From positions 1-64,000 of the forward strand of contig JADGCV010000011.1 of assembly GCA_015228815.1 (NCBI GenBank): a stretch of 64,000 nt of DNA, in the 5' to 3' direction. Numbering within the stretch: the stretch's first letter is position 1; each line of letters starts with the position of its first letter. Below the pieces are notes generated by a model. It was given only the letters and a program-made list of their open reading frames with translations, made no database searches and was not told where the DNA came from. This document shows positions 44,015 through 61,500 of this stretch, piece by piece. This DNA is from Magnetococcales bacterium (GTDB taxonomy: Bacteria; Pseudomonadota; Magnetococcia; Magnetococcales; UBA8363). The translations under genes and the position numbers were made by a program.

Positions 44015-45192
44015 GAATTCCTTTGGGATGGCGGATGCAGTTGTTCATTGTACAACCGGTTGATGAAGGTGGCCATGGACAGGGCGTATTCATGATCCTG
44101 GAGGAGGAAGGAGTCATGGCCATGGGGTGAATGGAATTCCTGATAGGAAACGTTCTTCTGGTGCAGATTGAGAATGCGGACCAGCTCCTTGGATCGGGAA
44201 CTGTCGAAGCGCCAATCGGTATCGAAGCTCATGACGAACAGGCGGGCACGGACCATCTTGAGCCTGCGGGCGGTTGTTTCGGGGTCGGGAAAGGGATCGA
44301 AATAGTCCATCGCCTTGGTGATGTAGAGATAGGTATTGGCATCGAATTTCTTGCCGAAGGTCGATCCCTGATGCTTGAGATAGGATTCGACGGCAAAGTC
44401 GGTTTCCAGGGCGAAGGAGAAGGATTCGCGGTTTTGCAGACGGCGACCGAATTTTTCATGGAGCCCCTTCTCGGAAAGATAGGTGATGTGGGCCATCATC
44501 CGCGCCACCGACAATCCCCGTTCCGGTTTGGGTCCATGGTAGTAGTTGCCATTGTTGAAATCGGGGTCCTGGGTGATGGCCTGACGGGCGACGGCGTTGA
44601 AGGCGATGTTCTGGGCCGAAAGTCTGGGGGTGGAGGCGATGATCAGGGCGCCGGCGATGCTGTCGGGATAATCCAGGGCCCATTGCAGGGCGATCATTCC
44701 CCCCATCGATCCTCCCGCCACGGCCAGGACCTTGTCGATTCCCAGGTGGAGGAGCAGGGACCGTTGCAGCCGGGCGATGTCGCCGATGGTGATGAGGGGA
44801 AAGTTCAGGGCATAGGGGGTCTGGGTTGCCGGATTGATGCTCGATGGACCGGATGTGCCGTCGCACCCCCCCAGATTGTTGGCGCAGATGACAAAAAAAT
44901 GATCGGTATCGAACGGTTTTCCAGGACCGATATAGCCATCCCACCAACCGGTCTTGGTATCGGTCGGATGATGGCGACCGGCGGCGTGGGCATTGCCCGA
45001 AAGGGCATGACAGATGAGGATGACGTTGCTTTTATCATGGTTGAGCCGGCCATAGGTTTCATAGGCCACCTGGATCGGTTGCAGGGTCGCCCCGCTGTCA
45101 AGGCGCAATGGTTCTCCCTGGTCGAACAGGGTGACTGTCTGTGTCGTCACCAGACCGACGGAAGTGGGATCGTTCGTGGAGGTTGAATTCAT
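44011..45192 (-). CDS. metX: Homoserine O-acyltransferase MetX
   Basis: Alpha/beta-hydrolase of 393 aa that acylates homoserine for methionine synthesis. The oxyanion region ICHALSGNAHAAG, nucleophile GGSMGGMIALQW, acid SFDTDWRF and base SPHGHDSFL are all present. The ATG at 45192 is preferred; the frame upstream lacks similarity. It leads metX-metW-hpt-gph. I did not recognise a SAM riboswitch in the leader. Confidence 0.95.
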   Translation of the reverse strand: MNSTSTNDPTSVGLVTTQTVTLFDQGEPLRLDSGATLQPIQVAYETYGRLNHDKSNVILICHALSGNAHAAGRHHPTDTKTGWWDGYIGPGKPFDTDHFFVICANNLGGCDGTSGPSSINPATQTPYALNFPLITIGDIARLQRSLLLHLGIDKVLAVAGGSMGGMIALQWALDYPDSIAGALIIASTPRLSAQNIAFNAVARQAITQDPDFNNGNYYHGPKPERGLSVARMMAHITYLSEKGLHEKFGRRLQNRESFSFALETDFAVESYLKHQGSTFGKKFDANTYLYITKAMDYFDPFPDPETTARRLKMVRARLFVMSFDTDWRFDSSRSKELVRILNLHQKNVSYQEFHSPHGHDSFLLQDHEYALSMATFINRLYNEQLHPPSQRNS

Positions 45193-45305
45193 GGTGGTCT
45201 GGAATTCATGGATGGTTTCGCATCCCGATGATGGCGGCTTTTCGGCGAACCTTGGGATTTTCCATCGGTTTCTTCCCGTCGTCAAGGGGTCATTCTGGCA
45301 CCAGG

Positions 45306-45413
45306 TCAGGACAACACCCACTCGCCGTTTGCCTTGATCTCGTCGTACATGGCGTCCGGAGCCAAATCGATCTCGCCGGGCCAAGTCACAGCCGAAACAT
45401 TCAGTGACGTCAT
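45306..45413 (-). CDS. 35-aa ORF coupled to the Rpn gene
   Basis: A short frame begins at an ATG overlapping the Rpn stop (ATATGA at 45410-45415) and encodes MTSLNVSAVTWPGEIDLAPD plus fifteen more residues. The composition is acidic and plausible for a real peptide, and coupling supports translation. I do not recognise it. It could be a regulator or inhibitor of Rpn, or chance. Confidence 0.35.
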   Translation of the reverse strand: MTSLNVSAVTWPGEIDLAPDAMYDEIKANGEWVLS

Positions 45414-46321
45414 ATTGATTCCGCGAATACATCCTTCAGGGACCTGGCATCCACAAATCGAAGGCTCCACGCCTCCAGGATGGGCAGTTCGGCGTTGGCG
45501 ATTTTTTCGCTGGCCCATTCAGGCAATTTGCCAAAACGGTGTTGTAATAAGCGGGTCAGGATCTTTGCTTCGCCAATTTGTTCTCCTCTCCGCTCACCGA
45601 TTTGAATGCCTTCTTTCCGTGCCAGTTCGATACGTCCTCGTGCGTCGGCAATGGCGATTCCAGCCTTGTCATAAAGGTCCAGCTCATCTTTCGTCATGTT
45701 GGCGATCATGGCTTTTTCAAACGCATGCCGAAATGGTGGCAGATCCAGTTGGTCGGGTACCCGTTCCAGGGTTTCGGCATGGCGGATGAAATAAATCCAT
45801 TTCTCAAGGATTCCGTCACACGCTTCCAAGGTTTTCGTGAATTTTGTCAACTCCACGAAATAATGGACAATATCGCTCAGGTACGAATCGCCGGTGATGG
45901 TTTCCTGGGACTGGTGGCAGGAAACGCTGTGGTCGAAGTTTGGGAACAGGATAAAATCGGTGATGGTGATCGCGATGACCTGTCTTAATTTGGGGTAGTC
46001 TTCAGCCCTGCTGATCTGTCCAGAATAGGCCTTGGCACTGTTGTATTGGATGCGGTTGAGAAACCCGGCAACCTTCTCCATCTGCATCTCTACCACATAC
46101 GAAATGCCGCGATGATCCTTGCAGCGCACATCCAAAACAGAGGATTTGAGGTCCTTGATGCGTGGCGCCAGAAACGGGTCCAGGATGGTCAACTCCACAA
46201 TACGCCGATCCCCATCCAACCCGAGCAGACTCTCCAGAAAGGAGATCAGGATATCCTTTGCGTCTTCGCTGCCGAAAATTTTCTTGAAGGCAAAGTCGAT
46301 ACGTGGATCGATGAATTTCAT
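45410..46321 (-). CDS. Rpn/PDDEXK-type recombination-promoting nuclease (transposase-like)
   Basis: The 303-aa protein begins FIDPRIDFAFKKIFGSED, a hallmark of Rpn/PD-(D/E)XK_2 proteins. It carries the catalytic strands SSVLDVRCKD and SYVVEMQM, and ends with a coiled region containing IQIGERRGEQIGEAK and a helix set like other members. These DNA endonucleases promote recA-independent exchange or act in phage defence. They are often multi-copy and mobile. Confidence 0.88.
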   Translation of the reverse strand: MKFIDPRIDFAFKKIFGSEDAKDILISFLESLLGLDGDRRIVELTILDPFLAPRIKDLKSSVLDVRCKDHRGISYVVEMQMEKVAGFLNRIQYNSAKAYSGQISRAEDYPKLRQVIAITITDFILFPNFDHSVSCHQSQETITGDSYLSDIVHYFVELTKFTKTLEACDGILEKWIYFIRHAETLERVPDQLDLPPFRHAFEKAMIANMTKDELDLYDKAGIAIADARGRIELARKEGIQIGERRGEQIGEAKILTRLLQHRFGKLPEWASEKIANAELPILEAWSLRFVDARSLKDVFAESI

Positions 46322-46619
46322 GATCTATTCCTTGCCGTTGATCAGAGAAGGCGTGTCCGGTGGTTCATTGTCCTGTGGAAAGGGTGTGCCGTCAATCAGG
46401 ATCAGTCGGAATCGGGTTGTGAAGTGATTCGGACCGGACTGTTTGCGCTGATCGCAAAGACTTCATCACCTCCTGAACCCGTGCAAATTTTTTCCAAAAA
46501 ACATATAGCGTCCCCGAATTTTCACGAAAACGGAATCCGGGGACTGAATCCTGTCTTAAGGTCCCAAAGTGTCCCATGGACAGGATTGTCCCCAAATTTC
46601 CGCCCTCGGGCTGACCCCA
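46322..46619. repeat. Intergenic DNA with palindromic repeats
   Basis: No gene is supported in the first 200 bases. Two imperfect hairpins occur: tccccgaatttt against aaaacggaatccgggga at 46511-46542, and aatcctgtc/gacaggatt at 46547-46555/46579-46587. A related segment with ggaaattcggagacaatt lies near 46840. They resemble REP-type repeats. Confidence 0.5.
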
Positions 46620-46745
46620 TCAAACGCTGACCCAGGACAAAGCCAGCAGGGTGAACAAAAACAACAGAACAGGAAGGATCACCTTCTTCCAGTCGAGTTC
46701 CTCCTTGTCTCCATGGATTCCACTCTCGATATGTGCGATATGCAT
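46620..46745 (-). CDS. 41-aa single-span membrane protein
   Basis: The frame begins MHIAHIESGIHGDKEELDW and then has a hydrophobic helix KVILPVLLFLFTLLAL, ending WVSV. The ribosome site GGAAAGGAG lies upstream of the ATG at 46745. The polar-to-membrane layout and good start signal suggest a real small protein. It is divergent from the tetraheme cytochrome gene 280 bp away and may assist an electron-transfer complex; that is conjecture. Confidence 0.55.
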   Translation of the reverse strand: MHIAHIESGIHGDKEELDWKKVILPVLLFLFTLLALSWVSV

Positions 46746-47024
46746 GGCCGTCTCCTTTCCCGTCCCCAAGTCTGCCGACAACCCCTCCCTTCAGCCCCCA
46801 TATCGGCTTGGACAAGGGAATGGCGGAGAAGTTCCACGGAAATTCGGAGACAATTCAGTCACCAGATTTCCATCAATTTGTCTGATTCCATCCACGGCGG
46901 AACCGAAGACGTAATGCCTGGTGCGCGATGGATTGTGTGTACTGCTTGTCTTGTGTGGACAGTGATGGAATTCCGAAGTACACTGGGAAGATGAAGAATA
47001 CCGTAGCCTCGGGGAGAGCCCTGT

Positions 47025-47633
47025 ATGTCCCACAAACAACCTCACAACCGTCGGGCCATGGCCGACAATCGTGGCGCCACGCTGCCACTGGCCGTTCTGG
47101 GCGGTCTTGTTCTTGGGGGTATGGTTTTTTTTCTCTTTCATTTTCTCGTCATGGACGGTCCCACGAACACCTTGGAGTTTTGCATCTCATGTCATGAAAT
47201 GGAAGGGGTCTACAAGGAATACAGCGAAAGCATTCACTACAAGAACCATTCCGGGGTTCGGGTGGTGTGCGCGGACTGTCATGTTCCCCATGGCAAAGGG
47301 TTGGTCGATTATCTGGAAAAGCTTGAAGACAAGGTGCTGGTTGGAGGACGTCATCTGTACCATCACCTCATCGGCACCTATCCGGATTCGGCTTCCTTTG
47401 AAAGGGAACGATACCGCCTGGCCCAATATGTTCTTGGAAAGATGAAGGAACGGGACTCCAGGGAGTGCCGCCGTTGCCATACCTTCGAGGCGATGCAACT
47501 GGCCGATCAAAGTCGTTCCGCCGCCAACAAACATGGACGGCTGATGAAGCAGGGAGATGGCACCTGCATCGACTGTCATTCGGGTGTTGTCCATGAGGAA
47601 CCGAAGAAACCCGGGGAGGAGCAACCGAAATGA
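47025..47633 (+). CDS. NapC/NirT-family tetraheme cytochrome c
   Basis: A membrane-anchored quinol-oxidising cytochrome of 202 aa. One N-terminal membrane helix (LAVLGGLVLGGMVFFLFHFL) is followed by four heme sites: FCISCHEM, CADCHVP, CRRCHTF and CIDCHSG. It passes electrons from quinol to periplasmic reductases. GGGGAGAG precedes the ATG. The monoheme gene follows with a 4-base overlap; no reductase gene is in view. Confidence 0.94.
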   Translation: MSHKQPHNRRAMADNRGATLPLAVLGGLVLGGMVFFLFHFLVMDGPTNTLEFCISCHEMEGVYKEYSESIHYKNHSGVRVVCADCHVPHGKGLVDYLEKLEDKVLVGGRHLYHHLIGTYPDSASFERERYRLAQYVLGKMKERDSRECRRCHTFEAMQLADQSRSAANKHGRLMKQGDGTCIDCHSGVVHEEPKKPGEEQPK

Positions 47634-48142
47634 ACGCGAGAACCCTCATTATCCTTTCCCTGAGTTTATCTCTTTTCGTGGTTTCCCCGGCGCTATCGGC
47701 GGAACCATCCCACCGCGACACCTATGTGCAAGGAGTCATCGCCATTCTGCGTCAACATGCCGCGCACATTCGCATGTTGGCGACGATCGATTTCAAGTAC
47801 AGCCATAACCTTGTTCGTCATGTGTCGGCCCTTGAAGACAGCTTTGGTCTCCTCGGTCCCATGGACTGGCACGCTGCCCGGGCCGTTTCTCTTCAAGAAA
47901 ACGATGGCAACCATCCTTTGATGGATACCGAAGCATTCGAGTCCCTTGCCCGTGATTGCCAAAAATCCATCAAAACCCTCCATCAAAGCGCGATCCACCG
48001 GATCGAGGGAGGAACCGCCGAACCCGTATTGGAGGCGTTGGACAAGGTTCAAAGCAAGTGTAACCACTGTCATGGTCTTCTGGGCGGCGCCGCTCCCGAT
48101 GTCTGGGGAAATGGCGTACCGGATCAACCCGTCGTGCCCTGA
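47630..48142 (+). CDS. Exported monoheme cytochrome, cytochrome c'-like
   Basis: The 170-aa protein has a signal peptide (LIILSLSLSLFVVSPALSAE) and a helical body, with the single heme motif KCNHCHGLLGG near the C terminus, the layout of the cytochrome c'/c-prime fold. It is coupled to the tetraheme cytochrome by an ATGA overlap and is a likely redox partner or terminal component. Confidence 0.85.
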   Translation: MNARTLIILSLSLSLFVVSPALSAEPSHRDTYVQGVIAILRQHAAHIRMLATIDFKYSHNLVRHVSALEDSFGLLGPMDWHAARAVSLQENDGNHPLMDTEAFESLARDCQKSIKTLHQSAIHRIEGGTAEPVLEALDKVQSKCNHCHGLLGGAAPDVWGNGVPDQPVVP

Positions 48143-48215
48143 AACGGTCCTGCGCAAGGGGCTTCCTCGGGCCACCCTTTTCGACAGGACCGAAGAGAAA
48201 TCCAGGTGGTTAGGC

Positions 48216-49388
48216 TCAAGGCGTTCCTTCGAGAATCCCCTGGACATGGTGGGCAATCATCAGGTCTTCATCGGTGGGAATGACATAGGCGGGAATTTTT
48301 GACCGTGCCGTGGTGATGCGCAGGGCATGACGTTCGTTTTCCATGGCATCGCGTTCAAATCCGAGCCATTCCAGACCATCAAGAATTCTGCCGCGCACCA
48401 GACTTGAATGTTCCCCAATGCCTGCCGTGAACACCGCGCCATCGATCCCCCCCATGGATGCGGCAAGGGCCCCGAACTGCTGTTGAATCCGATAGACGAA
48501 AAGATCGATCGCATCGCAAGCCCGCGGATCATCCGACTGTTCGAGAACCCGCATGTCATGGGTTTGTCCGGAAACGCCCAGCAGTCCGGATTGTCGGTAA
48601 AGAAGATCCTCGATTTTTTCCAGAGGCAGACCAAGTTCACGAGCCATGAAGAACAGAACACCCGGATCCAGCGCCCCCGACCGGGTTCCCATCGGCAGTC
48701 CGTCCGCCGCCGTCAGTCCCATGGTGGAATCGATGCCCCGTCCCTGGTGAATGGCACACATGCTGGCCCCGTTTCCCAGGTGTGCCACCACCACCCGCCC
48801 GCGGGCAACGACCGGATCGACCTCCCGCAGTTTCAAGGCAATGTATTCATACGAAAGACCGTGAAAACCATAGCGACGGATTCCAGCATCGGTCAAAAAC
48901 CGGGGCAGGGGAAACATGCGCGCCTCTTTTCTTTTCCCGGCGTGAAAGGCGGTATCGAAACAGGCCACCTGCAACAGGCCGGGATACAACCGGGAAAGGG
49001 CGCGAATGGGCTCAAGATTGTGCGGCTGATGGAGTGGCGCCAACGGAATCAATTGTTCCAGGGAATGGATGACGTGTGCGTCCACGACGATCGGACGGCA
49101 AAAATCAACCCCGCCATGGACCACCCGGTGCCCGGCGGCGTGGACATCGGCGTGCTGGCCAAGCCATTCCAGCAAAAATTTCAGACAGCCATGATGCCCG
49201 GCGTGGGATTTTTCCAGGGTCTGGTCATGCTGCCGGTCGCCGACCCGGGCGGAAAAAACAGGGACCGTCATGATTTCGGAAATCTGGCCGCGGATGCGCC
49301 GCACGGGCCCATTGGCCGTTGCCGCGAAAAGGGAAAACTTGAGACTGGAGGAACCGGCATTGAGGACGGCGATATTCCGTGGAACCAT
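48216..49388 (-). CDS. ackA: Acetate kinase
   Basis: AckA interconverts acetyl phosphate and acetate, making ATP. The 390-aa sequence has VLNAGSSSLKFSLF, HRVVHGG, RYGFHGLSYEYIAL, HLGNGASMCAI, MGTRSGALDPG and FTAGIGEHSSLVR. The ATG at 49388 is preferred (about 33 bp after the pta-like gene). It is the second gene of the operon. Confidence 0.97.
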   Translation of the reverse strand: MVPRNIAVLNAGSSSLKFSLFAATANGPVRRIRGQISEIMTVPVFSARVGDRQHDQTLEKSHAGHHGCLKFLLEWLGQHADVHAAGHRVVHGGVDFCRPIVVDAHVIHSLEQLIPLAPLHQPHNLEPIRALSRLYPGLLQVACFDTAFHAGKRKEARMFPLPRFLTDAGIRRYGFHGLSYEYIALKLREVDPVVARGRVVVAHLGNGASMCAIHQGRGIDSTMGLTAADGLPMGTRSGALDPGVLFFMARELGLPLEKIEDLLYRQSGLLGVSGQTHDMRVLEQSDDPRACDAIDLFVYRIQQQFGALAASMGGIDGAVFTAGIGEHSSLVRGRILDGLEWLGFERDAMENERHALRITTARSKIPAYVIPTDEDLMIAHHVQGILEGTP

Positions 49389-49420
49389 GGCGTGTTGTTC
49401 TCCCTCCACTGACAATGCGA

Positions 49421-50389
49421 TCACCCTTTTTTGAGAAGGCCCCTTTTTCGAGCCTCCACCACCCGGGTTGCCACGGCAACCGATGCCAATCGGGTACGGG
49501 TATTGTCGGAACGGCTGGTCAGGATGATGGGAACCCGCGCCCCCAGAACGATCCCTGCCCCATCCGCATGAGCCTGCCAGGTCAATTGTTTGGCCAACAT
49601 GTTTCCCGATTCCAGATCGGGGGCGACAAGGATGTCGGCCTGTCCCGCGACCGGACTGCGGATGCCCTTGGTCCGCGCCGCTTCAAGGCTTACGGCATTG
49701 TCATAGGCCAGGGGTCCATCGATGATCCCCCCGACGATTTGACCCCGTTCGGCCATTTTGGACAGGGCTGCCGCATCGAGGGTCGATGGCATGTCGGGAT
49801 TGACCGTTTCCACGGCGGAAAGGATCGCCACCTTGGGGTTGGGAATGCCCATGGCCCGAGCCAGATCGATGGCGTTTTGACAAATATCGACCTTGACCGC
49901 CAGGGTCGGGTTGATGTTGATGGCGGCATCGGTGATCAGCAAGGGACGGGGAAAATCGGGAATATCCATCAAATACACATGGCTGATACGGCGTTCGGTA
50001 CGCAACCCTCCATTCTTCTTGACGACCTCGCCCATGATTTCATCGGTGTGAAGGCTGCCTTTCATCAGGGCTTCCGCCTCGCCCTCATGCGCCAGGGCAA
50101 CGCCGATCTCGGCGGCGTGATGGCTGTGATCGGCGGCAATGATGCGATAGGAGGCGATATCGAACCGGGCTTCGCTGGCGACCTGCCGAATCCGGGCGGG
50201 TGGGCCGATGAGAACAGGTTCGATCAACCGCGCCTCGGCGGCGTGTATGGCCCCTGAAAGTGAATCGAAGTCGCACGGATGGATCACCGCTGTTTTCAAG
50301 GGTGCGACCGGGGCACAGGAATCGATCAGGCTGTCATAACGCCAATACTCCTCCAGATCCGGTCCGGGACATGGTTTATGTTGGTTCAT
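49421..50389 (-). CDS. pta: Phosphate acetyl/butyryltransferase family protein
   Basis: The 322-aa single-domain enzyme has LMKGSLHTDEIM, TDAAININPTLAVKVDI, ILSAVETVNPDMPSTLDAAA and VAPDLESGNMLAKQL, all Pta/Ptb family hallmarks. With ackA it links acyl-CoA and ATP through acyl phosphate. Acetyl or butyryl preference is not settled from sequence; the acetate kinase neighbour favours acetyl. Confidence 0.9.
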   Translation of the reverse strand: MNQHKPCPGPDLEEYWRYDSLIDSCAPVAPLKTAVIHPCDFDSLSGAIHAAEARLIEPVLIGPPARIRQVASEARFDIASYRIIAADHSHHAAEIGVALAHEGEAEALMKGSLHTDEIMGEVVKKNGGLRTERRISHVYLMDIPDFPRPLLITDAAININPTLAVKVDICQNAIDLARAMGIPNPKVAILSAVETVNPDMPSTLDAAALSKMAERGQIVGGIIDGPLAYDNAVSLEAARTKGIRSPVAGQADILVAPDLESGNMLAKQLTWQAHADGAGIVLGARVPIILTSRSDNTRTRLASVAVATRVVEARKRGLLKKG

Positions 50390-50596
50390 GAGCCACTCCT
50401 TGATAAGGTTGTCGCATTGAGGCCGCATGATGGACCTTGAATCCATCGTCCCACTTTCCATGTGCGCCGCGCCATTTTCAAGGGTTATTCGTAATCGATG
50501 GCGCAACACTTGCTTTCCTGCTTAACGATTGGCAACAAGGATCTGTCCCTTTGATGGATCGTGTCGGCATCACGGTACACAATTCGGGAGGAACTC

Positions 50597-51235
50597 ATGG
50601 AATCGACGGTATCAAGGCAGGAAACAACCGAACCAGACACCGAAGGGATGGTTTCATCCGACATCATCCCCAAACCCATCAGCGCCAACGCAAGAAGGGA
50701 CCGATGGTTGAAGCGGTCGTCCCTGGGCAGAAACCTGATGTTGGCCTTTTCGTTTCTTGTTGTCGCCCGGGCCGGTTCGGCCCTTGACGGAAACCTGTTT
50801 CTGTTTTCCCAGGAAGAGGAGATGTCGTCCGAACTCGCGACATCGCCAATCTTTTTCCGCCACGCCCTTTCCTGGTTGCCACAATCCTCCAGCGGACTGA
50901 AATTTTCAATGCCCCCTCATGGAATGCACGACGCGCCTCTGGCGGCGCATTCGGAAACCGAAGCCGTGGTCCGGGAATTGATGGCCTTCACCATCGGCGC
51001 ATCGCCACGGGATGCCGCACGTCCTTCCCGACCGGAAACGTCCACGCCGCATCGATCCCCTGGGTTCCATGCCGTTGCCAACCTTGGCGACATCGACCCG
51101 GAAATCCTCAAATCGGCCATCGAAATACCCGATCCGGCACACTTCGGTCAAAAGAGTGAAGAAAAATCGGTTGCGGATTTGAAAAGCAATCCCTTTTCCC
51201 AGGAAGAACTGGTAGAGTTGGCCATGATGCGTTAA
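50597..51235 (+). CDS. Hypothetical protein with internal hydrophobic segment
   Basis: About 212 aa from the ATG at 50597, which has a GGGAGGA site; the frame extends 12 codons upstream. After a 45-residue polar start comes a hydrophobic stretch (LGRNLMLAFSFLVVARAG), which could be a long signal peptide or an anchor. The rest is disordered-looking and rich in Pro, Ser and acidic residues. No family recognised. It precedes the receiver-PAS-DAC-like gene by 35 bp on the same strand, so the two may be co-expressed. Confidence 0.65.
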   Translation: MESTVSRQETTEPDTEGMVSSDIIPKPISANARRDRWLKRSSLGRNLMLAFSFLVVARAGSALDGNLFLFSQEEEMSSELATSPIFFRHALSWLPQSSSGLKFSMPPHGMHDAPLAAHSETEAVVRELMAFTIGASPRDAARPSRPETSTPHRSPGFHAVANLGDIDPEILKSAIEIPDPAHFGQKSEEKSVADLKSNPFSQEELVELAMMR

Positions 51236-51270
51236 GCCAACTGTCGTTCGATTGTGGAGACGGAAGAGAC

Positions 51271-53283
51271 ATGGAGAACGAGGATCACCATCTTATTCTG
51301 GTTGTGGATGATGATTGCGTAATCTTGCAACTGCTCGAAGCCTTCCTCAAGGAAAACGACTTTTCCGTCCTCTTGGCCGACAATGGGTTCGAAGGGCTCA
51401 AGATTTTCGAACAGCATCACCCCGATCTGGTCCTTCTTGATGCGCAGATGCCTCTGATCGATGGGTTTGACACCTGCCAGAAGATCAAGTCGCTCCCCGG
51501 TGGCGACGATGTACCCGTCGTCATGGTCACCTCGCTTTCCAGCAGCGATGCGATCAACCGGGTTTTTCAGGCCGGAGCCGAGGACTATGTTTCCAAACCG
51601 ATCAACTGGGACCTTCTCAGGCAACGCATTCGGCGCATTCTGAAACACAAGGCCTCCTTTTTTGCCCTCCGGGAAAAAGAAGAACAGATTCGCCTGGCAA
51701 CCGATTCCCAAAACGATGCCATCATCACCGCCAACGCTCAGGGCAATATCGTTTTCTGGAATCGAGGGGCCGAACTGACCTTCGGATATTCCAAGGAAGA
51801 GGTCCTGGATCGCCCCCTGACCATGCTGATGCCCTATCGGTTTGCCAGCCAGCATATCGAAGCGGTCAACCGTGTCCGGGAAACGGGCAAAATCAAGCTG
51901 GCCGGACGTTTATTGGAATTGATGGGACAACGGAAAAATCGCGAGGAATTTCCTCTGGAAATTTCCATCACCCACTGGTACGCGGGGAAAAAAATGTTTT
52001 TCTCCGCAGTGATCCGCGATATTACGGAACGAAAAAAAGCCCTCGGCGGTCAGGAAGGGCTGGCCCTGTTCGATTTTCATATCATCGACCAGATTCTGGC
52101 ATTGGCCAACCGCGTCCATCCCCAGGGGGCGGGGCTTCGGGGGTTTCACCATGTCAAATCGATCATGGAGAATGTTTTTCTCGCGGGACTGCGCCGCGAG
52201 GAGGACCTTCCGGTCAAGGTCAGCGTCGCTCTCGGTGACGAAACGCTCCTGACCAGCACCCCTGGATTTGACGCTCCGTTCATCCGTTTCGACACCCCGG
52301 TCCCCTTTACCGTCGATTCGCTTGTCAAACTTGGACCGGGATTCGATCCGACGACGACCTCTCTTTTCGTTCGTGCCCGAAAGAACGATTCGAAAAACCT
52401 GGAAATCTGGGGGGCCGTGTTTTCCAGTACCCGGGGCATGGGCATGCTCGATCCGTTCCCCTTTCAGCAGCGCCCCTTGAACGTTTTGACGATCTTCACC
52501 CGCAAAACAGGCTCCCTTGTCATCCGCTGGGGTGACAAAATGCTGGCACATTTTCAATCGGGACACTTTTCCGAACCCGTCGTCGATCCCTTCGAAAACT
52601 GCATCATCGCCTCGACCCTCCTGGATGTCGTGACCACCCATTCCGAATACGCACGTTCCGGTGACTTTTATTGGGAGATTTACCGTTCGGTTCTTTTATT
52701 TCTCTTGAGAACATCTTCGGATAACAACACCGGAGGTACCGTCATCTGGCTTCCGGAGAGCCATACCATCAAGATCCAGGAGTCCCTCATCGATCGTTAT
52801 CCGCTCCAGGAAAGCCTGGAAGGGGTGGACATCATCGATGAATATTGCCAACTGGAAATCAAACGACGCAACCTTGGCGGAGCACCCGGATCCATCTCCG
52901 ATCCGGAAGGGCTCAAGGCCATCGGCCAGGCGATGCTCGATGTCAAACGGCGCATGATCGAACACACCGAGTTTCTGTCCCACCTGACCCGGATCGATGG
53001 CGCGGTCCTGATGTCACACCGACTCAAACCAATCGCCTTCGGCGCCATTCTGGCGGCCAATACCTGGTATGGCAAAGTTCTTTATGACAACCGGGACGGT
53101 ATCCGTTCGGGTCGCGAGGTCGATCGTTCCAAGTATGGAACACGGCACGGATCGGCGGTCGATTTCGTTGCCCGTTATCCGGGAGCCATCGCCTTCGTCC
53201 TTTCCCACGACGGTCCCGTCTCTGCCATGACCTTCAACGACGGCGCCGTTTTCTGGGTCCCGGACTACATCAGCACCTATTGA
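51271..53283 (+). CDS. Receiver-PAS protein with C-terminal DAC-like domain
   Basis: The 670-aa protein opens with a receiver domain (ILVVDDD, VLLDAQMPLIDG with the phosphoacceptor Asp, and SKPINW), followed by a PAS domain at about 140-260 that ends in AVIRDITERKK. A long middle region of unknown fold follows. The last ~110 residues contain DGAVLMSHRLKPIAFGAIL at D576 and GTRHGSAVDFVARYPGAIAF at 623. This arrangement mirrors the DGA and RHR motifs of diadenylate cyclase (DisA_N/DAC) domains, but the second Arg of RHR is Gly627. It may make or sense a cyclic dinucleotide; a non-catalytic DAC relative is equally possible. Confidence 0.75.
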   Translation: MENEDHHLILVVDDDCVILQLLEAFLKENDFSVLLADNGFEGLKIFEQHHPDLVLLDAQMPLIDGFDTCQKIKSLPGGDDVPVVMVTSLSSSDAINRVFQAGAEDYVSKPINWDLLRQRIRRILKHKASFFALREKEEQIRLATDSQNDAIITANAQGNIVFWNRGAELTFGYSKEEVLDRPLTMLMPYRFASQHIEAVNRVRETGKIKLAGRLLELMGQRKNREEFPLEISITHWYAGKKMFFSAVIRDITERKKALGGQEGLALFDFHIIDQILALANRVHPQGAGLRGFHHVKSIMENVFLAGLRREEDLPVKVSVALGDETLLTSTPGFDAPFIRFDTPVPFTVDSLVKLGPGFDPTTTSLFVRARKNDSKNLEIWGAVFSSTRGMGMLDPFPFQQRPLNVLTIFTRKTGSLVIRWGDKMLAHFQSGHFSEPVVDPFENCIIASTLLDVVTTHSEYARSGDFYWEIYRSVLLFLLRTSSDNNTGGTVIWLPESHTIKIQESLIDRYPLQESLEGVDIIDEYCQLEIKRRNLGGAPGSISDPEGLKAIGQAMLDVKRRMIEHTEFLSHLTRIDGAVLMSHRLKPIAFGAILAANTWYGKVLYDNRDGIRSGREVDRSKYGTRHGSAVDFVARYPGAIAFVLSHDGPVSAMTFNDGAVFWVPDYISTY

Positions 53284-53416
53284 GTCTCATGAAATGAGAT
53301 TCTACCTAAGGAGTCGGCACGCCAGACTACTTGAGCATATCTCCAAAGGAGTCTGCCTGCGCGACAGCTTTTCCGATGGTTGGATTTCGTAAACGACGTG
53401 AAAATGGTAAACCATC

Positions 53417-54022
53417 ATGAAAATATGGTATTTTCAATCCATTCCGATCTTCCTGCTTTTGTTTGTTCCCGGGTTCATTTCAATTAAGGTCTACGATTTG
53501 TTGATTCCTGGAGAAGCAAGAGATTTTATGAAAGCAATACCAGAAGCCGTAAGTTATTCAGCACTTAATTTTGCATTTCTCTATCCGATTTCGCTTTTTC
53601 TTCCTTCCGGTATTCAGGAATTGCAACCTAGACTTTTCGCATTATTCATCTATTTTGCTCTGATCGTTTTTCCGGTGGTTTGGCCATTGTTGTTGGTTTG
53701 GATTTCGAAAAAAGAATTTTTTCTTAAGCGGATGCCTAGTCTGGTTCCAACGCCATGGGACTACATTTTTGGACAGAAAGAATCATTTTGGGTTATTGTT
53801 CATCTTACAGATGGAAGAATGATCGGTGGACGATTTGATAAATTCTCAAGTGCCAGTGCTTTTCCAAAAGAAAATCAGATATACATCCAAGAAGTATGGA
53901 AACTAGATGACGGCGTTTTCAGGGAAAAAATAGACAGTACGCGAGGTATTTTGATTCATGGGAAAGATATTTCTTTGATAGAATTCTTTGACAATAGCGA
54001 GGTGCAAGATGAGCAACAATAA
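53417..54022 (+). CDS. DUF6338-like membrane protein
   Basis: The 201-aa protein has hydrophobic segments near residues 7-25, 45-62 and 72-95. A cytosolic SH3-like part follows with PTPWDYIFGQKESFWVIVHL, GGRFDKFSSASAFP and QIYIQEVWKLDDG. This matches what I recall of DUF6338, an uncharacterised family. The gene is markedly AT-richer than its neighbours, which suggests recent acquisition. It overlaps the next small gene by 14 bases. Confidence 0.7.
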   Translation: MKIWYFQSIPIFLLLFVPGFISIKVYDLLIPGEARDFMKAIPEAVSYSALNFAFLYPISLFLPSGIQELQPRLFALFIYFALIVFPVVWPLLLVWISKKEFFLKRMPSLVPTPWDYIFGQKESFWVIVHLTDGRMIGGRFDKFSSASAFPKENQIYIQEVWKLDDGVFREKIDSTRGILIHGKDISLIEFFDNSEVQDEQQ

Positions 54023-54197
54023 ACGATCTGAAGGTCCTGTCATCACAGTAAGAGGATCTTATCAGCCAACGAAAAGCACTCTGAACCCGGCAACTCCTCC
54101 TAAAGGATCTGGCGTTCCTCCCAAGGGTTCGGGATCTGGCGTTTCTCCCAAGGGTTCGGGATCTGGCTCTTCAGATGGTGGGCAAGGGAAAAGTTGA
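54009..54197 (+). CDS. 62-aa repeat peptide coupled to the DUF6338-like gene
   Basis: From the ATG at 54009 it encodes RGSYQPTKS and then repeats of PPKGSGSGV/SPKGSGSG, ending SSDGGQGKS. It is low complexity and flexible, with no membrane segment or fold. Small Pro/Gly/Lys-rich proteins with a YQPTK motif commonly sit next to DUF6338 genes, as I recall. The start lies inside the upstream gene, so the pair is probably made together. Confidence 0.6.
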   Translation: MSNNKRSEGPVITVRGSYQPTKSTLNPATPPKGSGVPPKGSGSGVSPKGSGSGSSDGGQGKS

Positions 54198-54301
54198 TTT
54201 ATTGACCTGCCAGCGCCAAAGAGTGATCAAACTCATATTCACGCCGCGACATTATTTCCACGAAAAATTGTCTTTGCAAAGGGGTCCACATCAATGTGAG
54301 T

Positions 54302-55378
54302 CTATTGCCGCAACAAGGCACGGATCCGCTCGGAAACCGTCGCGAAGGGTTCGACCCGTTCCCGGACCATCTCCGGCCAGGACTCGATCCTGGGACGCCA
54401 TAGCGTGCCATCGGGACGACCGCGCCACCGGGCATGCAGCCAGTTGTATTGTTCGGCATAATCGTGAATCCATGGAGCAAAAATCCGATTGAGTCGATCG
54501 GTCGCCCGTGCCACCGCATCTTTCCCGCCCCTGAGATCATCGAGCGCGACCGGAGGCAAATACTGAATACGATTGCGCCCCGGAGCCTCGCGGAAGACCA
54601 GGACTGGAATCAAAGGCAGGTCCATTTGCAGTGCCAAACGCCCCGCCCCCGGTGGACAGAGGGCGGGCAGTCCCAAGAAAGGGGCTTCCACGCCCCCGTT
54701 CCGAAAATTGATGTCGGTCATCACCACCAGGATTTTTCCCTGTTTCAATGCCCGGATTGTCGTCCGGACATCATCGCGGGGAATCCATTCGACCGGATAG
54801 ATCGACCGGCGTTTCTGAAAAAATTGTTCGCTCAACGGATTGTTTGCCGGTCGATAGAGGCAGGCCATCGGCAGGTTCAGAAGGCCCGCCCCATGGAACA
54901 GGCCCGATTCCCACCCGCCCAGATGAATGCTGGCAAGGATTATCCCGCTCCCTCCACGAAATGCCTCCAACAGATGATGACTGCCATCGACACCACTCCA
55001 TTGGATCCCCTCGGGTTGCAATCCTTCGACATAACTCATGAAAATATTGCGAAAAGCCAGGATACCCAGATGCCGTCGTTCCTTTGGGGAAAGACCTGGG
55101 CCATAGGTCAACCACAGGTTGGTCTGACACCAGGCCCATTCACGGCGCAAGGCGAATCGTCCCAGGTTCGCAAGCCTCATGGCGCGGCGACAGGATTCAC
55201 CCGTCTCCGGACGGTCGAGCCACAAGGCCAAGGCACGCAGCAACCACCATTCAAGACGATGAGAAAACCGCTCAGCCACGGACAAGGATCTCCACGGTGT
55301 GTACACACTCCTCGATGATCGAGAGGACCCCGAATGGATCAACGGGCGAACGGCAAACCGGCAACCCGCATTCATTCG
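54302..55378 (-). CDS. LpxL/HtrB-type lipid A acyltransferase family protein
   Basis: Inner-membrane acyltransferase of about 358 aa that would add a secondary acyl chain to lipid A. The HxxxxE motif (SIHLGGWESGLFHG) and the second block DINFRNGGVEAPFLGLPALCP followed by PPGAGRLAL are clear, as is LPLIPVLVFRE. The frame stays open to 55681, and I cannot fix the start: 55378 is the last ATG before the conserved RLEWWLLRALALWL, but an internal GTG is possible. Confidence 0.85.
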   Translation of the reverse strand, partial: RMNAGCRFAVRPLIHSGSSRSSRSVYTPWRSLSVAERFSHRLEWWLLRALALWLDRPETGESCRRAMRLANLGRFALRREWAWCQTNLWLTYGPGLSPKERRHLGILAFRNIFMSYVEGLQPEGIQWSGVDGSHHLLEAFRGGSGIILASIHLGGWESGLFHGAGLLNLPMACLYRPANNPLSEQFFQKRRSIYPVEWIPRDDVRTTIRALKQGKILVVMTDINFRNGGVEAPFLGLPALCPPGAGRLALQMDLPLIPVLVFREAPGRNRIQYLPPVALDDLRGGKDAVARATDRLNRIFAPWIHDYAEQYNWLHARWRGRPDGTLWRPRIESWPEMVRERVEPFATVSERIRALLRQ

Positions 55379-55636
55379 GCCAACAGCCAGGAAAGACATA
55401 CGGCAAAACGAGAAAAAAAACCACAACGACGTGTACCATGACCACCGCGCCAAGCCCCCCCGGCGATGAAATCGGTAAAACTCTTCACGATCCCAAGCCG
55501 AAGACAATGGAAACCTCCACGCCAGGATGCTATGCTTGCGTCCCGTCAGGATGAGGCAAGGAGATTCCGAACTTGGCCAACACACGGTTTCCAAGGACCA
55601 TCTCATGACCCGACCCAACGCACAAAGAGGAAAATC

Positions 55637-56062
55637 ATGGCGGACGTTCAGGCACGCATCAAATTGATCGAAGGAATCCAACTTCTCGGGGAGTCCGGTT
55701 CAGGCCATACGGTCGTCATGGATGCCCATCCGGACCTGGGTGGCCGGGACATGGGCATTCGCCCGATGGAACTGCTGCTCCTGGGGTTGGGCGGCTGCGC
55801 CAGTATCGATGTCATCGCCATTCTCAGGAAGGGCCGGCATGAGGTTCGGGACTGCGTGGCTACCCTTGAAGCCACCCGGGCCCCGACCGATCCCAAGGTA
55901 TTCACCGCCATCACGATCCACTTTGTCGTCACCGGTCGATCGATTCCTGAAAAAGCGGTCGCCCGCGCCATTCAATTGTCCGAGGAGACGTACTGTTCCG
56001 CCTCTGCCATGCTGGGCAAGACCGCGACCATCCACACCACCTTTGAAATCCGGGAGTCATGA
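55637..56062 (+). CDS. OsmC/Ohr-family protein
   Basis: A 141-aa peroxide-handling type protein with MELLLLGLGGCASIDVI (first Cys) and SEETYCSASAMLG (second Cys), the two redox cysteines of the OsmC family. Its stop overlaps the start of dsbA (ATGATC). The frame continues upstream to 55466, but similarity starts at the ATG at 55637. Confidence 0.9.
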   Translation: MADVQARIKLIEGIQLLGESGSGHTVVMDAHPDLGGRDMGIRPMELLLLGLGGCASIDVIAILRKGRHEVRDCVATLEATRAPTDPKVFTAITIHFVVTGRSIPEKAVARAIQLSEETYCSASAMLGKTATIHTTFEIRES

Positions 56063-56694
56063 TCATGGTCCAGTGGTATCGGTCCATTCTTTTTTTCTTT
56101 TGTTCCCTGTTTCTGTTCCTGGCCCCCCTTCACGCCGAGACCATGACTCTGAAGGCGGGCGTTGATTACACCGCCATCGTCCCCCCCGTCCCGGTCCCGA
56201 CGGGAAAGCCTGAAATCGTGGAGGTTTTCAACTTTAAATGCCCTCATTGCTACGATCTTCACCCGCATCTCGAAGCCTGGTTGAAAAACAACGGTGATCG
56301 CTATCAGTACCGTTCTCTTCCCGTCTATTGGGGACGCCAGACCGATCTTCCCCTGCGTTCCTTTTTTGCCGCCGAATTTCTCGGTCGTGGGCCACAAATG
56401 AAAACAGCAATCTTCAAAGCCCATTTCGACAATAATCTTAATATCGAAAACATCAACGAACTGGGTTTCATCGCCGAGGAGGCGGGTCTGGATCCGGAAA
56501 AGTTTAAAAGTCAGCTTCAGTCATTCGGTGTCTCCACCCGGGTGTCCCAGGCCTTGAGCCTGCAGAAAGCCTATGGCGTGACTGGAACTCCCGCTCTGGT
56601 GGTCAATGGAAAATATCAGGTCTCGTTTGGCCAGCACGCCAAGGGTGACCCGAAGCGTCTGATCGCCATCGTCGAAGCCCTGGCGGCCCGGTGA
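56059..56694 (+). CDS. dsbA: Thiol:disulfide interchange protein DsbA
   Basis: Periplasmic oxidase of 211 aa. A signal peptide (ILFFFCSLFLFLAPLHAE) is followed by the thioredoxin-fold active site NFKCPHCYDLHPHL and the cis-Pro loop GVTGTPALVVNGKY. It introduces disulfides in exported proteins. It overlaps the OsmC gene by four bases, and the EtfB gene follows after 6 bp. Confidence 0.94.
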   Translation: MIMVQWYRSILFFFCSLFLFLAPLHAETMTLKAGVDYTAIVPPVPVPTGKPEIVEVFNFKCPHCYDLHPHLEAWLKNNGDRYQYRSLPVYWGRQTDLPLRSFFAAEFLGRGPQMKTAIFKAHFDNNLNIENINELGFIAEEAGLDPEKFKSQLQSFGVSTRVSQALSLQKAYGVTGTPALVVNGKYQVSFGQHAKGDPKRLIAIVEALAAR

Positions 56695-56700
56695 ACCGGC

Positions 56701-57441
56701 GTGCGGATCCTGGTTGCCATCCGCGAGGTACCCGATCCCGCCTTCCCGGTGCAGGTATTGGAGGAACGACAATCATCAAACCTTGAGGATGTCCCCAGGG
56801 TCATCAATCCGTTCGATGAGATTGCCCTGGAAGAAGCGATCAAATTCAAGGAGCAGGGGCTGGCGACGGACGTTTTTGCAGTCACCGTCGGTCCCAGGGC
56901 CTGGGAAGGTTCGTTGCGCACCGCCCTGGCGATGGGAGCGGATCGGGGCATTCTGATCGAGGCCGAACCTCACGGCGAGCCTCTGCTCGTCGCCCAGGCC
57001 ATCGCCCGACAGGCACGAACGGAGGCCATCGATCTGATCCTCATGGGACGTCAGGGGATTGATTGCGACCATGGGGTGACTGCCGCCATGACTGCCGGAA
57101 TCCTCGATTGGCCCCAGGCGACCTTTGTCAGCCGAATCGACCTTTCGGAAAACACCGCCACCGTCGAACGCGAGGTGGATGGTGGCAGGCAACGGCTGCA
57201 ACTGACCCTGCCCGCGGTCATCAGCGTCGATCTGGGATTGAACACCCCACGATATGCCAGCCTTCCCAACATCATGAAGGCCCGGGCCAAACCCATCGCC
57301 ATCCATTCCCTCCCGCAAATGCCCACACCTTCCTGGGACATCATGGCCCATATTCCGCCACCCGGTCGTCCCAAGGGTCGTCGCGTCACATCGGTTGCCG
57401 AACTGATCGCGCAGCTGGAGCGGTTGGGAGTTCTTCCTTGA
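56701..57441 (+). CDS. etfB: Electron transfer flavoprotein beta subunit
   Basis: The 246-aa subunit starts with GTG at 56701 and has KEVPDP-like IREVPDPA, NPFDEIALEEAIKF, TALAMGADRGILIE, LMGRQGIDCDHG and the signature VDLGLNTPRYASLPNIMKAR. It holds AMP and part of the FAD site in the EtfAB dimer. Its TGA overlaps the TTG start of etfA. Confidence 0.95.
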   Translation: MRILVAIREVPDPAFPVQVLEERQSSNLEDVPRVINPFDEIALEEAIKFKEQGLATDVFAVTVGPRAWEGSLRTALAMGADRGILIEAEPHGEPLLVAQAIARQARTEAIDLILMGRQGIDCDHGVTAAMTAGILDWPQATFVSRIDLSENTATVEREVDGGRQRLQLTLPAVISVDLGLNTPRYASLPNIMKARAKPIAIHSLPQMPTPSWDIMAHIPPPGRPKGRRVTSVAELIAQLERLGVLP

Positions 57442-58397
57442 GCGTCCTTGTCGTGGCCGGAGATCGACTTGGCGGTCCATCGCCAGCCACCTCCCGCGCC
57501 GTTACCGCGGGACGGCAACTGGGGCGGGTCGATCTGCTGGTGGCAGGAGCGGACAGCGACGAAAAATGCCGTCTGGGACGACGCATCGAAGGGGTGGAAA
57601 AGGTTTTTCACGTTGTCCATTCCGCCGACTTTCCTCCAGCCACCGAAAACCTGGCGCGGGTCATTGCCCATGTTTCTTCCCGTTACCGTTGGATCGTGGC
57701 GGCCCATGACAGCTTCGGGGCCGATCTGATTCCCCGGGTCGGAGGAATGCTTGCGACCTCACCCGTCACCCAGGTGACGGCCATCGCCCCACCCGATACC
57801 TTGATCCGTCCCATACACGCCGGACAGGCGCTGGCGCGACTCCTGGTGAAAAGATTTCCCGCCCTGCTGACAATTCGTCCCATTGCCTTTCCGCCCGCCA
57901 GCGATGCCGTGGCTTGCGCTCCGGTCGAAACACTTGCCCCGCCACCCGGTGGTCCATCAAGCCGCCACGAGGCGTTCATGACCACGACCGGCACCCGACC
58001 CGACCTGTCCCAGGCGGCCATCGTGGTGGCGGGAGGACAGGGGTTGGCCGCTTCCGGAAGTTTTGCCACGGTGACGGCATTGGCCGACCGGTTGGGTGGC
58101 GCGGTCGGGGCCACCCGGGGAGCCGTTGATGCCGGACTTGCCTCCAGCGAGCTGCAAATCGGCCAGACCGGGCGGATCATCGCCCCGGAACTCTACATTG
58201 GTCTCGGTGTCTCGGGAGCGATCCAACACCTGGCCGGCATCAAGGATGCCAAGGTCATCGTCGCCATCAATCACGATCCCGACGCCCCCCTGCATGCCAT
58301 CGCCGACCTGTCCCTGGTCGCGGACCTGCATCGTGCCGCCGGGGAGCTGGACGAAATTCTCCACACCGTTCAAAGCTGTTTGCCGGATTTGCGCTGA
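57438..58397 (+). CDS. etfA: Electron transfer flavoprotein alpha subunit
   Basis: The 319-aa FAD-binding subunit starts at TTG (TTGA overlap with etfB, giving MSVLVVAGD). The FAD domain shows VAGGQGLAASGSF, GATRGAVDAGLASSELQIGQ, GVSGAIQHLAGIK and INHDPDAPL. It passes electrons from flavin dehydrogenases; no dehydrogenase or ETF-QO gene is adjacent. Confidence 0.95.
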   Translation: MSVLVVAGDRLGGPSPATSRAVTAGRQLGRVDLLVAGADSDEKCRLGRRIEGVEKVFHVVHSADFPPATENLARVIAHVSSRYRWIVAAHDSFGADLIPRVGGMLATSPVTQVTAIAPPDTLIRPIHAGQALARLLVKRFPALLTIRPIAFPPASDAVACAPVETLAPPPGGPSSRHEAFMTTTGTRPDLSQAAIVVAGGQGLAASGSFATVTALADRLGGAVGATRGAVDAGLASSELQIGQTGRIIAPELYIGLGVSGAIQHLAGIKDAKVIVAINHDPDAPLHAIADLSLVADLHRAAGELDEILHTVQSCLPDLR

Positions 58398-58513
58398 ACC
58401 AGCACAGTCCCGATCCTTGCGCTTCCTTGCTATTTTGCGTGTGTCGGACAGGAAAAAAGGGTATTTTCAGTGGTGGCGTGTACTGACTCGGCCACCCAAT
58501 CCGCAAGCATGTC

Positions 58514-61500
58514 ATGGAATCCGGTATGACCCTTACGAACCAGGAAGTCTTGGAACCCTTGCTTGTTGTTGAGGATTCCCGGAGCTTTGCATCGTTGCTT
58601 CTGGGAACCATCCGCCAACAACTGGGACATCCGGTAGTGCTGGCGAAAAGTTTCGATGAGGCGGTCAAGGCGGTTCAATCGGCCAGGGACCCTTTTCTGC
58701 TTGCCATCCTCGATCTTTATATTCCCGGCGCACCCAATGGTGAAATCGTCGATCTGATCCTGAAATCGGGGATCCCGGCGGTCGTTTTGACGGGCATGTA
58801 CAAGAAGGATTTGCAGGACAGGATCCTTGCCAAGGGGATTCTGGATTATTTTGTCAAGGACAACATTGGCGTCATCGATTCGGTCATCCATTTTATTCGC
58901 CGTTTTCACAAAAACAAACGGATCCGTGTCCTGGCCGTGGACGATTCGCGCTCCGTCCGCGTCATGTTGGCAAACTTTCTCAAACGCTACGGGTTTGTCG
59001 TCCTTCAGGCGGAGGATGGGCAAAAGGCCCTGGAAATTCTTGAAAAGGAACAGGTCCAACTCGTCATCACCGACTATCAGATGCCGCGACTGGATGGCAT
59101 CCAGCTGCTCAAGAAGGTCCGGGCGTTTCATAGCCGTGATGAACTTGCGGTCATCGGCCTGTCCTCGATTTCGGATGGCGATCTGTCGGTCCAATTCATC
59201 AAGGCGGGGGCCAACGATTTCCTGGTGAAACCGTTCGAGAATGAAGAATTGTTGTGCCGTGTCACCCAGAACATTGAAATCATCGAACGACACAACGAAC
59301 TGGAGCGCATGGTCAAAAGACATCAGTCGCTGTTGGAAAATGCACTGGATGCCATCATTACCACGGATGCCAAGGGGATGGTCCTTGATTTCAACCCCGC
59401 CGCGGAGAAACTTTTTGGATATACCAAAAAGGAGATCCTCGGTGGTCAGTTGACCGAATTCATTGTCCCGGTGGCATTGCAGCAACAACATCGTCAGGGG
59501 ATGGTCCATTACGTTCAAAGCGTCGTCAATGGGGATAACACCGTTTTGAGGAAACGTTTCGAAATCCCCGGAAAACGGTCCAACGGAGAAATTGTCGATC
59601 TTCAGGTGGCTCTGACCTCGGTGCAACAAAAGGACGATCTTTCATTCACCGCGTTTCTCCAGGACATTACCGATCGCAAACAGTTGTTGCGTTCCCTTGA
59701 GGAGACGCTGAGGGCGGCGGAATCGGCCAACAGGGCCAAAAGCGAATTCATCGCCAACATGAGCCACGAAATCAGAACCCCCATGAATGCCGTCATGGGG
59801 TTCACCGATCTGGCTCTGAAAAACGAACTCAGTCCCAAGATTCGGGATTATCTTGAGAAAGTGGAGGTCGCCTCTCATTCCTTGATGGGAATCATCAATG
59901 ACATCCTTGATTTTTCCAAGATTGAGGCGGGACAGATGGATCTGGATCCCGTTCGCTTCGATATTTCCGATCTGTTCGACCGTCTGGCCGATCTGTTCAG
60001 CAAACAGGTGGCGGATCGCGGATTGGAACTGATTCTGCTTCCGCCACTGGAATATGATTCGGTGTTGTTTGGCGATGTATTGCGTATCGAGCAGGTATTG
60101 ATCAATCTGATTCGCAACGCGATCAAATTTACCCATGAGGGATCGATTGTTGTGCAATCCCTGGTGGAGGAGTTGGAGGACAAGAAAGTCCAGGTCAGTT
60201 TCATGATTCGCGATACCGGTATCGGCATCGATCCCGACCGGTTGTCTAAATTGTTCAATCCTTTTGTTCAGGGGGACGGATCGACCACGCGCAAATATGG
60301 TGGAACCGGTCTGGGATTGACCATCTGCAAACGCCTGGTGGAGCGGATGGACGGTCGCATCTGGGTGACCAGCACTCCGGGGCAGGGGAGCATTTTTTCC
60401 TTTACCGTCATGGTGACCTTCGCCGCGAAAAACCGCCGCAAGAAAATGACGATTCCGGGTGATCTTTTCGGCAAACGGGTCCTGGTACTGGATGACAATG
60501 ATCTGATTCTTGAACTCATGCCCTCCATGCTCGAACGGCTTTCCCTCAGGCCACAAACTGCCCGAACCGCCGACGAGGTGGAACTTTTGTTGCTTGAGCA
60601 CAATTTTGGCAGGGACCCGATCGAATTGTTGTTGATCGACTGGAGTCTGAACGGTCAGGATGGCATTGGCGTCAGCCAACGGATTCTCAAACGATTGCGA
60701 GAAACGACACCACCTGCAAGGGCGCCGAAAATCATTCTCACGACCTCCTTTGGCGAGGACAAATTTAAACAATTGAGCCAGGAATCGGGAATCGATATTT
60801 TTCTCGACAAGCCCATCACCAAAAACCGTCTGATCCAGGCTGTTTCGGCGGCATTTGGCAAGGAGCAGCCGAAAAACGAACGGCGGGTAACGAAGATTCT
60901 TGCCCAGGATTATGAAACCGCCGATGTCATCGGAGGGGCACGTATTTTGCTCGTCGATGACAACGTCATCAATCAACAGGTGGCGCGCGAACTTCTGGAA
61001 CGGGTTGGATTGATGGTCGAAATTGCCAACAATGGCCGCGAGGCGCTCGACCGGATCGAAAAATATTCCTATGATGCCGTCTTGATGGATCTGCAAATGC
61101 CCGACATGGATGGTTTCGAAGCAACGACGATCCTGCGCAACGATGACCGCTTCAAGAATTTGCCGATCATCGCCATGACGGCGCACGCGCTGGAGAGCGA
61201 ACGGAAGAAATGTATTGAAATCGGCATGAATGGCCACATTGCCAAACCCATTCGTCCCGAACGGATGTATGGCGTATTGACCAAGGTCATCGGTCCGCTT
61301 ACGGTGCTGCCGGCGGCGGAGCATTTTAAACGCGATCAGCTGGAGTTGCCTGAAATTACAGGAATCGACATCAAGGACGGTCTCGAACGGGTGGGTGGCA
61401 ACGCCAAACTCTACTATCGAATCCTGCTTCGTTTTCGCAAGGATCAGCAACATCTTGCCGAGGAAATGCGCAATACCATCCAGAGTGGCAATCGTCTCGA

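Follow-up and report, generated by a model that had tools for sequence, protein, structure and literature searches.

The gene at 51271–53283 of the window (the whole 64,000-nucleotide stretch of DNA that was analysed) encodes a receiver-PAS protein that, on balance, we take to be a cyclic-dinucleotide synthase gated by phosphorylation and by its PAS domain. Its product would probably be c-di-AMP, and it appears to be paired, at the level of the whole genome, with a PgpH-type protein.

The gene, its domains and its neighbours

The reading frame is intact and is directly preceded on its 5' side by the purine-rich stretch GGAAGAGACATG, a likely ribosome site. From the N- to the C-terminus the protein consists of a receiver, a PAS domain, a DACNV domain and a domain with the fold of diadenylate cyclases (DAC). 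The features of the gene and its surroundings are as follows:

51271–53283, forward strand: REC-PAS-DACNV-DAC protein, intact open reading frame of 670 amino acids
51295–51633, forward strand: receiver domain, residues 9–121 (Pfam Response_reg, E 4.2e-29)
51688–52035, forward strand: PAS domain, residues 140–255 (PAS_9, E 9.7e-16; TIGR00229 sensory_box, E 2.1e-24)
52150–52419, forward strand: DACNV domain (PF21751), residues 294–383 (Pfam E 2.7e-13)
52711–53250, forward strand: DAC-fold domain, about residues 481–660 (weak PF02457 match, hhalign, AlphaFold and Foldseek)
50561–51235, forward strand: open reading frame of 224 amino acids, a possible operon partner, 35 nt upstream of the DAC gene on the same strand
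48219–50509, reverse strand: acetate kinase (ackA) and phosphate acetyl/butyryltransferase (pta/ptb), divergent from the DAC gene and syntenic within the genus

The receiver and PAS domain of the original prediction were thus borne out. The Pfam PAS_9 match itself spans residues 148–253, and the residues of the receiver (PF00072) are all found, namely the acidic D13/D14/D15, the phospho-acceptor D57, T87 and K109. The search for a DACNV-type domain, which had been proposed as a check, gave a match of 50.3 bits against a curated cut-off of 27, and DACNV was also matched in 19/19 relatives of our first alignment (A1). Full-length orthologues from five genomes of the same genus are 75–85% identical with the whole protein aligned (pS 0.68–0.77, dN 0.095–0.18, silent sites near-saturated). 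Judged from these sequences, purifying selection is acting on all domains of the protein.

Conservation of the gene neighbourhood (ackA, pta/ptb, DUF6338 and a lipid A acyltransferase) does not extend beyond the genus, and therefore the context yields no function. The upstream 224-residue frame has no Pfam or family match; it is syntenic in 5 genomes of the genus, where it is 31–38% identical with a conserved C-terminal end, and is a genus-restricted, fast-evolving gene and a possible partner of the receiver protein. An Rfam search of positions 45000–60000 returned nothing. Searches of viral contigs, plasmids and BFVD folds found no relatives of the protein and so give no reason to regard the gene as mobile or viral. 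PADLOC gave only receiver-domain cross-matches and thus no indication of a defence system.

Fold and active site of the C-terminal domain

The C-terminal domain almost certainly has a DAC fold, although one distant in sequence. With the query alone, the Pfam DAC profile (PF02457) matches residues 570–652 weakly (E 0.029–0.058) and at 13.4–14.4 bits, below the curated cut-off of 27. The same profile matches 19/19 members of alignment A1 at E<=1 (best 3.4e-5), and two relatives with a full RHR motif pass the cut-off only once neighbouring in-frame scores are summed. A profile-profile comparison with eight CdaA-type proteins from Desulfobacterota genomes gave an E-value of 3.5e-7, pairing DGA with DGA and GTRH with GTRH, and hhalign with the C-terminal domain alone against CdaA gave 1.3e-7.

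Structure prediction pointed the same way. AlphaFold models of residues 259–670 and 462–670 have pLDDT values of 90.8 and 92.8, and with both models the top 50 PDB matches from Foldseek were diadenylate cyclases only (CdaA, DacA, CdaM/DacM and DisA); for the shorter model the best E-value was 1.5e-4 and the probability 0.99–1.00. The DAC-like C-terminus of the original prediction was in this way upheld by the profile and structure searches that it had called for, neither of which gave another fold. The TM-scores normalised by target are moderate (0.29–0.59), as would be expected if the superposition is displaced by extra helices and by about 16 residues inserted between DGA and RH. This insertion also affects an argument made at the outset, that a spacing of about 45 residues between the motifs matches the DAC layout. 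D576 and R625 are 49 residues apart, against 32–33 in characterised DACs (D171/R203 in B. subtilis CdaA, PMC8573169; positions 72/105 in M. tuberculosis DisA, PMC3328451); taken alone, the spacing is a poor match. A sequence-only PDB search with the query, A1 and A4 gave nothing significant; three DACs appeared at E 0.22–0.84, and matches to SEC13 and a designed protein were put down to chance.

Conservation of the active site was counted over 74 distinct relatives, for these motifs:

52732–52743, forward strand: G488-T-V-I491, at the position of the DAC GALI motif; G488 invariant (74/74)
52996–53004, forward strand: D576-G-A578, the DGA motif; D and A in 74/74, G577 in 73/74
53137–53151, forward strand: G623-T-R-H-G627, the GxRHR motif, with another residue in place of its last arginine; G623, R625 and H626 in 74/74
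53203–53217, forward strand: S645-H-D-G-P649, at the (V/I)SEE position; S, D, G and P in 74/74

DGA and GTRHG lie exactly where the original prediction had put them, and among all the relatives there is no variation at D576, A578, G623, R625, H626, S645, D647, G648 or P649. In the model, G488-T-V-I491 begins the first strand after a long helix, G623-T-R-H-G627 is at a helix N-terminus as in CdaA, and S645-H-D-G-P649 comes after a strand, like SEE. D647 occupies the position of the metal-ligand Glu, and the family consensus [IL]S-[QH]-D-G-P keeps the acid as Asp. The His that precedes DGA in CdaA is I or V in this family.

The last arginine of RHR is replaced in 72/74 relatives and retained only by those from Methylobacter and Nitrospira. 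The residue at position 627 (N30 A13 T10 S8 G7 H2 R2 I1 K1) switches clade by clade on the tree. In Listeria CdaA the side chains in contact with ATP or metal are Leu31, Asp71, Thr102, Arg103, His104, Ser122 and Glu124, a list that does not include the second RHR arginine (PMC7288161). Their counterparts here are V490, D576, T624, R625, H626, S645 and D647 (Glu to Asp); the D, R, H, S and D among them are invariant (74/74), and T624 is T in 64/74. S. aureus DacA touches its substrate via the DG residues and the Thr ahead of RHR (PMC6368335). Replacement of the whole RHR motif by AAA abolishes the activity of M. tuberculosis DisA (PMC3328451), a change that also deletes the invariant R and H, and in the literature searched we found no experiment altering the third RHR residue alone.

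CdaA-YbbR proteins of several Desulfobacterota genomes likewise have RHT or RHH instead of RHR. Those with RHT at L103–L107 have otherwise normal DAC motifs and offer a natural test of the second arginine. The genome of Desulfogranum marinum DSM 2058 has six DAC-domain matches (L101, L111, L118, L120, L121 and L122). Two of these are a CdaA with RHR and a CdaA-YbbR-like protein with RHH; the other four are divergent DAC-fold proteins, and in one of the four GARYN takes the place of GTRHR.

The suggestion that the domain might be non-catalytic, as it reads RHG, is therefore a weak argument: the third residue of the motif varies throughout the family and in CdaA-YbbR homologues, and lies outside the CdaA contact list. 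Given the invariant residues of the site as well, we lean towards catalysis by the DAC-fold domain, which these alignments make the more probable case.

Relatives, PgpH and alternative readings

The host is a Magnetococcales bacterium, and its genome encodes three DACNV-DAC proteins: the REC-PAS protein of the window, one on contig C1 and one with a GAF domain on contig C13. The C1 paralogue has a REC-PAS layout by eye, which Pfam confirms in its close relative L046. A DAC profile search of the host genome found no canonical DAC. DACNV-DAC proteins are present in 38/41 searched Magnetococcales genomes, and the DAC cut-off is reached in three of the 41, in two by another DAC-like family and in one by a protein that is itself a DACNV-DAC. 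This second family, without DACNV (L123:844–3035 in G030 and L124:778–1731 in G037), has the motifs DGC, GARHATA/GGRHASA and SQDGP; a ClpX/Lon-like AAA+ ATPase gene directly downstream of the L123 gene suggests a separate two-gene system. Distant relatives consist of DACNV and DAC alone, with about 400–425 amino acids, and come from Desulfobacterales, Syntrophaceae, other Deltaproteobacteria, Methylobacter and Nitrospira.

PgpH is a phosphodiesterase of c-di-AMP. The host genome encodes one PgpH-type protein of 776 amino acids with 7TMR-HDED (E 2.6e-39), 7TM (1.5e-22) and HD (9.7e-18) domains, in whose sequence the HH and HD residues are visibly intact; its gene is on another contig, with no positional linkage to the DAC gene. 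PgpH was found in 40/41 Magnetococcales genomes. In a sample of 299 Pseudomonadota genomes, 48 from the order Magnetococcales and 251 others (order counts tallied from the table), PgpH exceeded the cut-off in 46/48 of the former versus 1/251 of the latter. In the control genomes the PgpH profile matches only where a canonical DAC is present too; one genome outside Magnetococcales (G076) has the 7TM-HD family with no DAC detected. All carriers of both PgpH and DACNV-DAC belong to one clade, and the association is therefore strong within the order but does not represent many independent events.

The earlier remark that c-di-AMP is rare in proteobacteria was right only in part: a canonical DAC occurs in about 73 of the 251 genomes sampled from other orders, and nearly all of these come from one family. 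None of these has PgpH over the cut-off in the same sample. Families f18 and f42 of the sample comprise about 70 small genomes (1.2–3.1 Mb), almost all from a single family, with this combination of a canonical DAC and no PgpH over the cut-off.

Searches of the host genome for the known c-di-AMP receptors CdAMP_rec and TrkA_C were negative; by comparison, 13 of 14 control genomes have a TrkA_C (RCK_C) domain. The DHHA1 matches in the host genome, to frames of alanyl-tRNA-synthetase and RecJ size and to a weak DHH-type protein of 357 amino acids, give no clear GdpP.

For the order as a whole we see about an even chance of a c-di-AMP circuit without canonical DAC, in which the DACNV-DAC proteins would synthesise the nucleotide, the second arginine of RHR being dispensable, and PgpH would remove it; in the genus of the host, synthesis would be gated through receiver/PAS or GAF domains.

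Perhaps, instead, the DAC-fold domain is non-catalytic, as the original prediction suggested, and binds ATP or c-di-AMP, acting within a phospho-signalling protein as its receptor or output. This we consider unlikely, though well short of negligible. The last RHR arginine is missing, the Glu of SEE has become Asp, the His before DGA is lost and the Pfam DAC score is under the cut-off; moreover, several Desulfobacterota have a DACNV-DAC protein alongside a canonical CdaA, so that it need not be a synthase there. However, pseudoenzymes usually lose the catalytic Asp, whereas D576 and the polar contacts to ATP and metal are frozen in 74 sequences, and the Magnetococcales retain PgpH yet have no canonical DAC to provide a ligand.

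Quite improbable, in our view, is an active DAC-fold cyclase or nucleotidyltransferase with another product, for instance a different cyclic or a linear dinucleotide, that the 7TM-HD protein would degrade. The altered residues do surround the phosphate/metal site, conservation is loose at the adenine-contact positions, 16 residues are inserted between the motifs, and the host genome has no known c-di-AMP receptor family. Against this, the substrate of PgpH is c-di-AMP, and c-di-AMP is mainly what characterised DAC-domain enzymes yield (PMC7288161). That an unrelated domain carries DGA and RH motifs by chance is hardly credible: a motif spacing of 49 rather than 32–33 and the weak Pfam E-value of the query alone would fit, but fold, profile and motif conservation all indicate DAC, and the fold and profile searches refute it.

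Proposed mechanism and comparison with known systems

In the synthase reading that we prefer, a kinase would phosphorylate the receiver at D57. Two DAC domains need head-to-head contact to act, and in PleD phosphorylation of the receiver drives the pairing of two nucleotide-cyclase (GGDEF) domains. By analogy with such receiver-GGDEF regulators, we propose that the receiver and PAS domain, acting through DACNV, govern the face-to-face meeting of two C-terminal DAC domains. Once paired, these would form a cyclic dinucleotide from two ATP, with c-di-AMP as the likeliest product, and the PgpH-type 7TM-HD protein would degrade it; the catalysis, the identity of the product and the gating by phosphorylation are all inferred. 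The two paralogues, one REC-PAS and one GAF, might supply the same pool from other inputs. As a speculation, acetyl phosphate from the products of the adjacent ackA and pta genes is a conceivable phospho-donor.

If the protein is active, it would represent a class of soluble cyclic-dinucleotide synthases under the direct control of two-component phosphorylation, a counterpart to PleD in c-di-GMP signalling. It would also correct the rule of thumb by which DAC proteins are called inactive (RHR is needed, so RHx is dead), and would account for the persistence of PgpH where standard annotation denies c-di-AMP synthesis. In the literature searched there was no report of c-di-AMP in Magnetococcales, and the term DACNV was not found.

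The pairing of DACNV with DAC is already known, as the name 'Probable sensor domain DACNV' (PF21751) implies, and was reportedly described by Burroughs et al. in 2015. Such proteins have the same two C-terminal domains (PF21751 and PF02457) in the same order. What is new here is the presumed gating by REC-PAS, the site without RHR and the pairing with PgpH: REC-PAS (GAF in a paralogue) is fused N-terminally, RHR lacks its last arginine, and the host genome combines the protein with PgpH and has no canonical DAC.

With CdaA/DacA the protein shares the DAC fold, DGA, GTRH and S-x-[ED]. However, those enzymes have transmembrane helices and a YbbR partner in a cdaA-ybbR context, none of which is seen here, where the sensors are soluble REC-PAS domains; the insertion between the motifs, the change of the metal-ligand Glu to Asp and that of RHR to RHx are further differences. 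In layout the 776-residue host protein is the same as PgpH (7TMR-HDED, 7TM and HD). In working principle the protein would resemble the PleD-like REC-GGDEF cyclases, in which a receiver drives the pairing of cyclase domains, although here the output is DAC instead of GGDEF, with a different fold and with ATP rather than GTP as the expected substrate.
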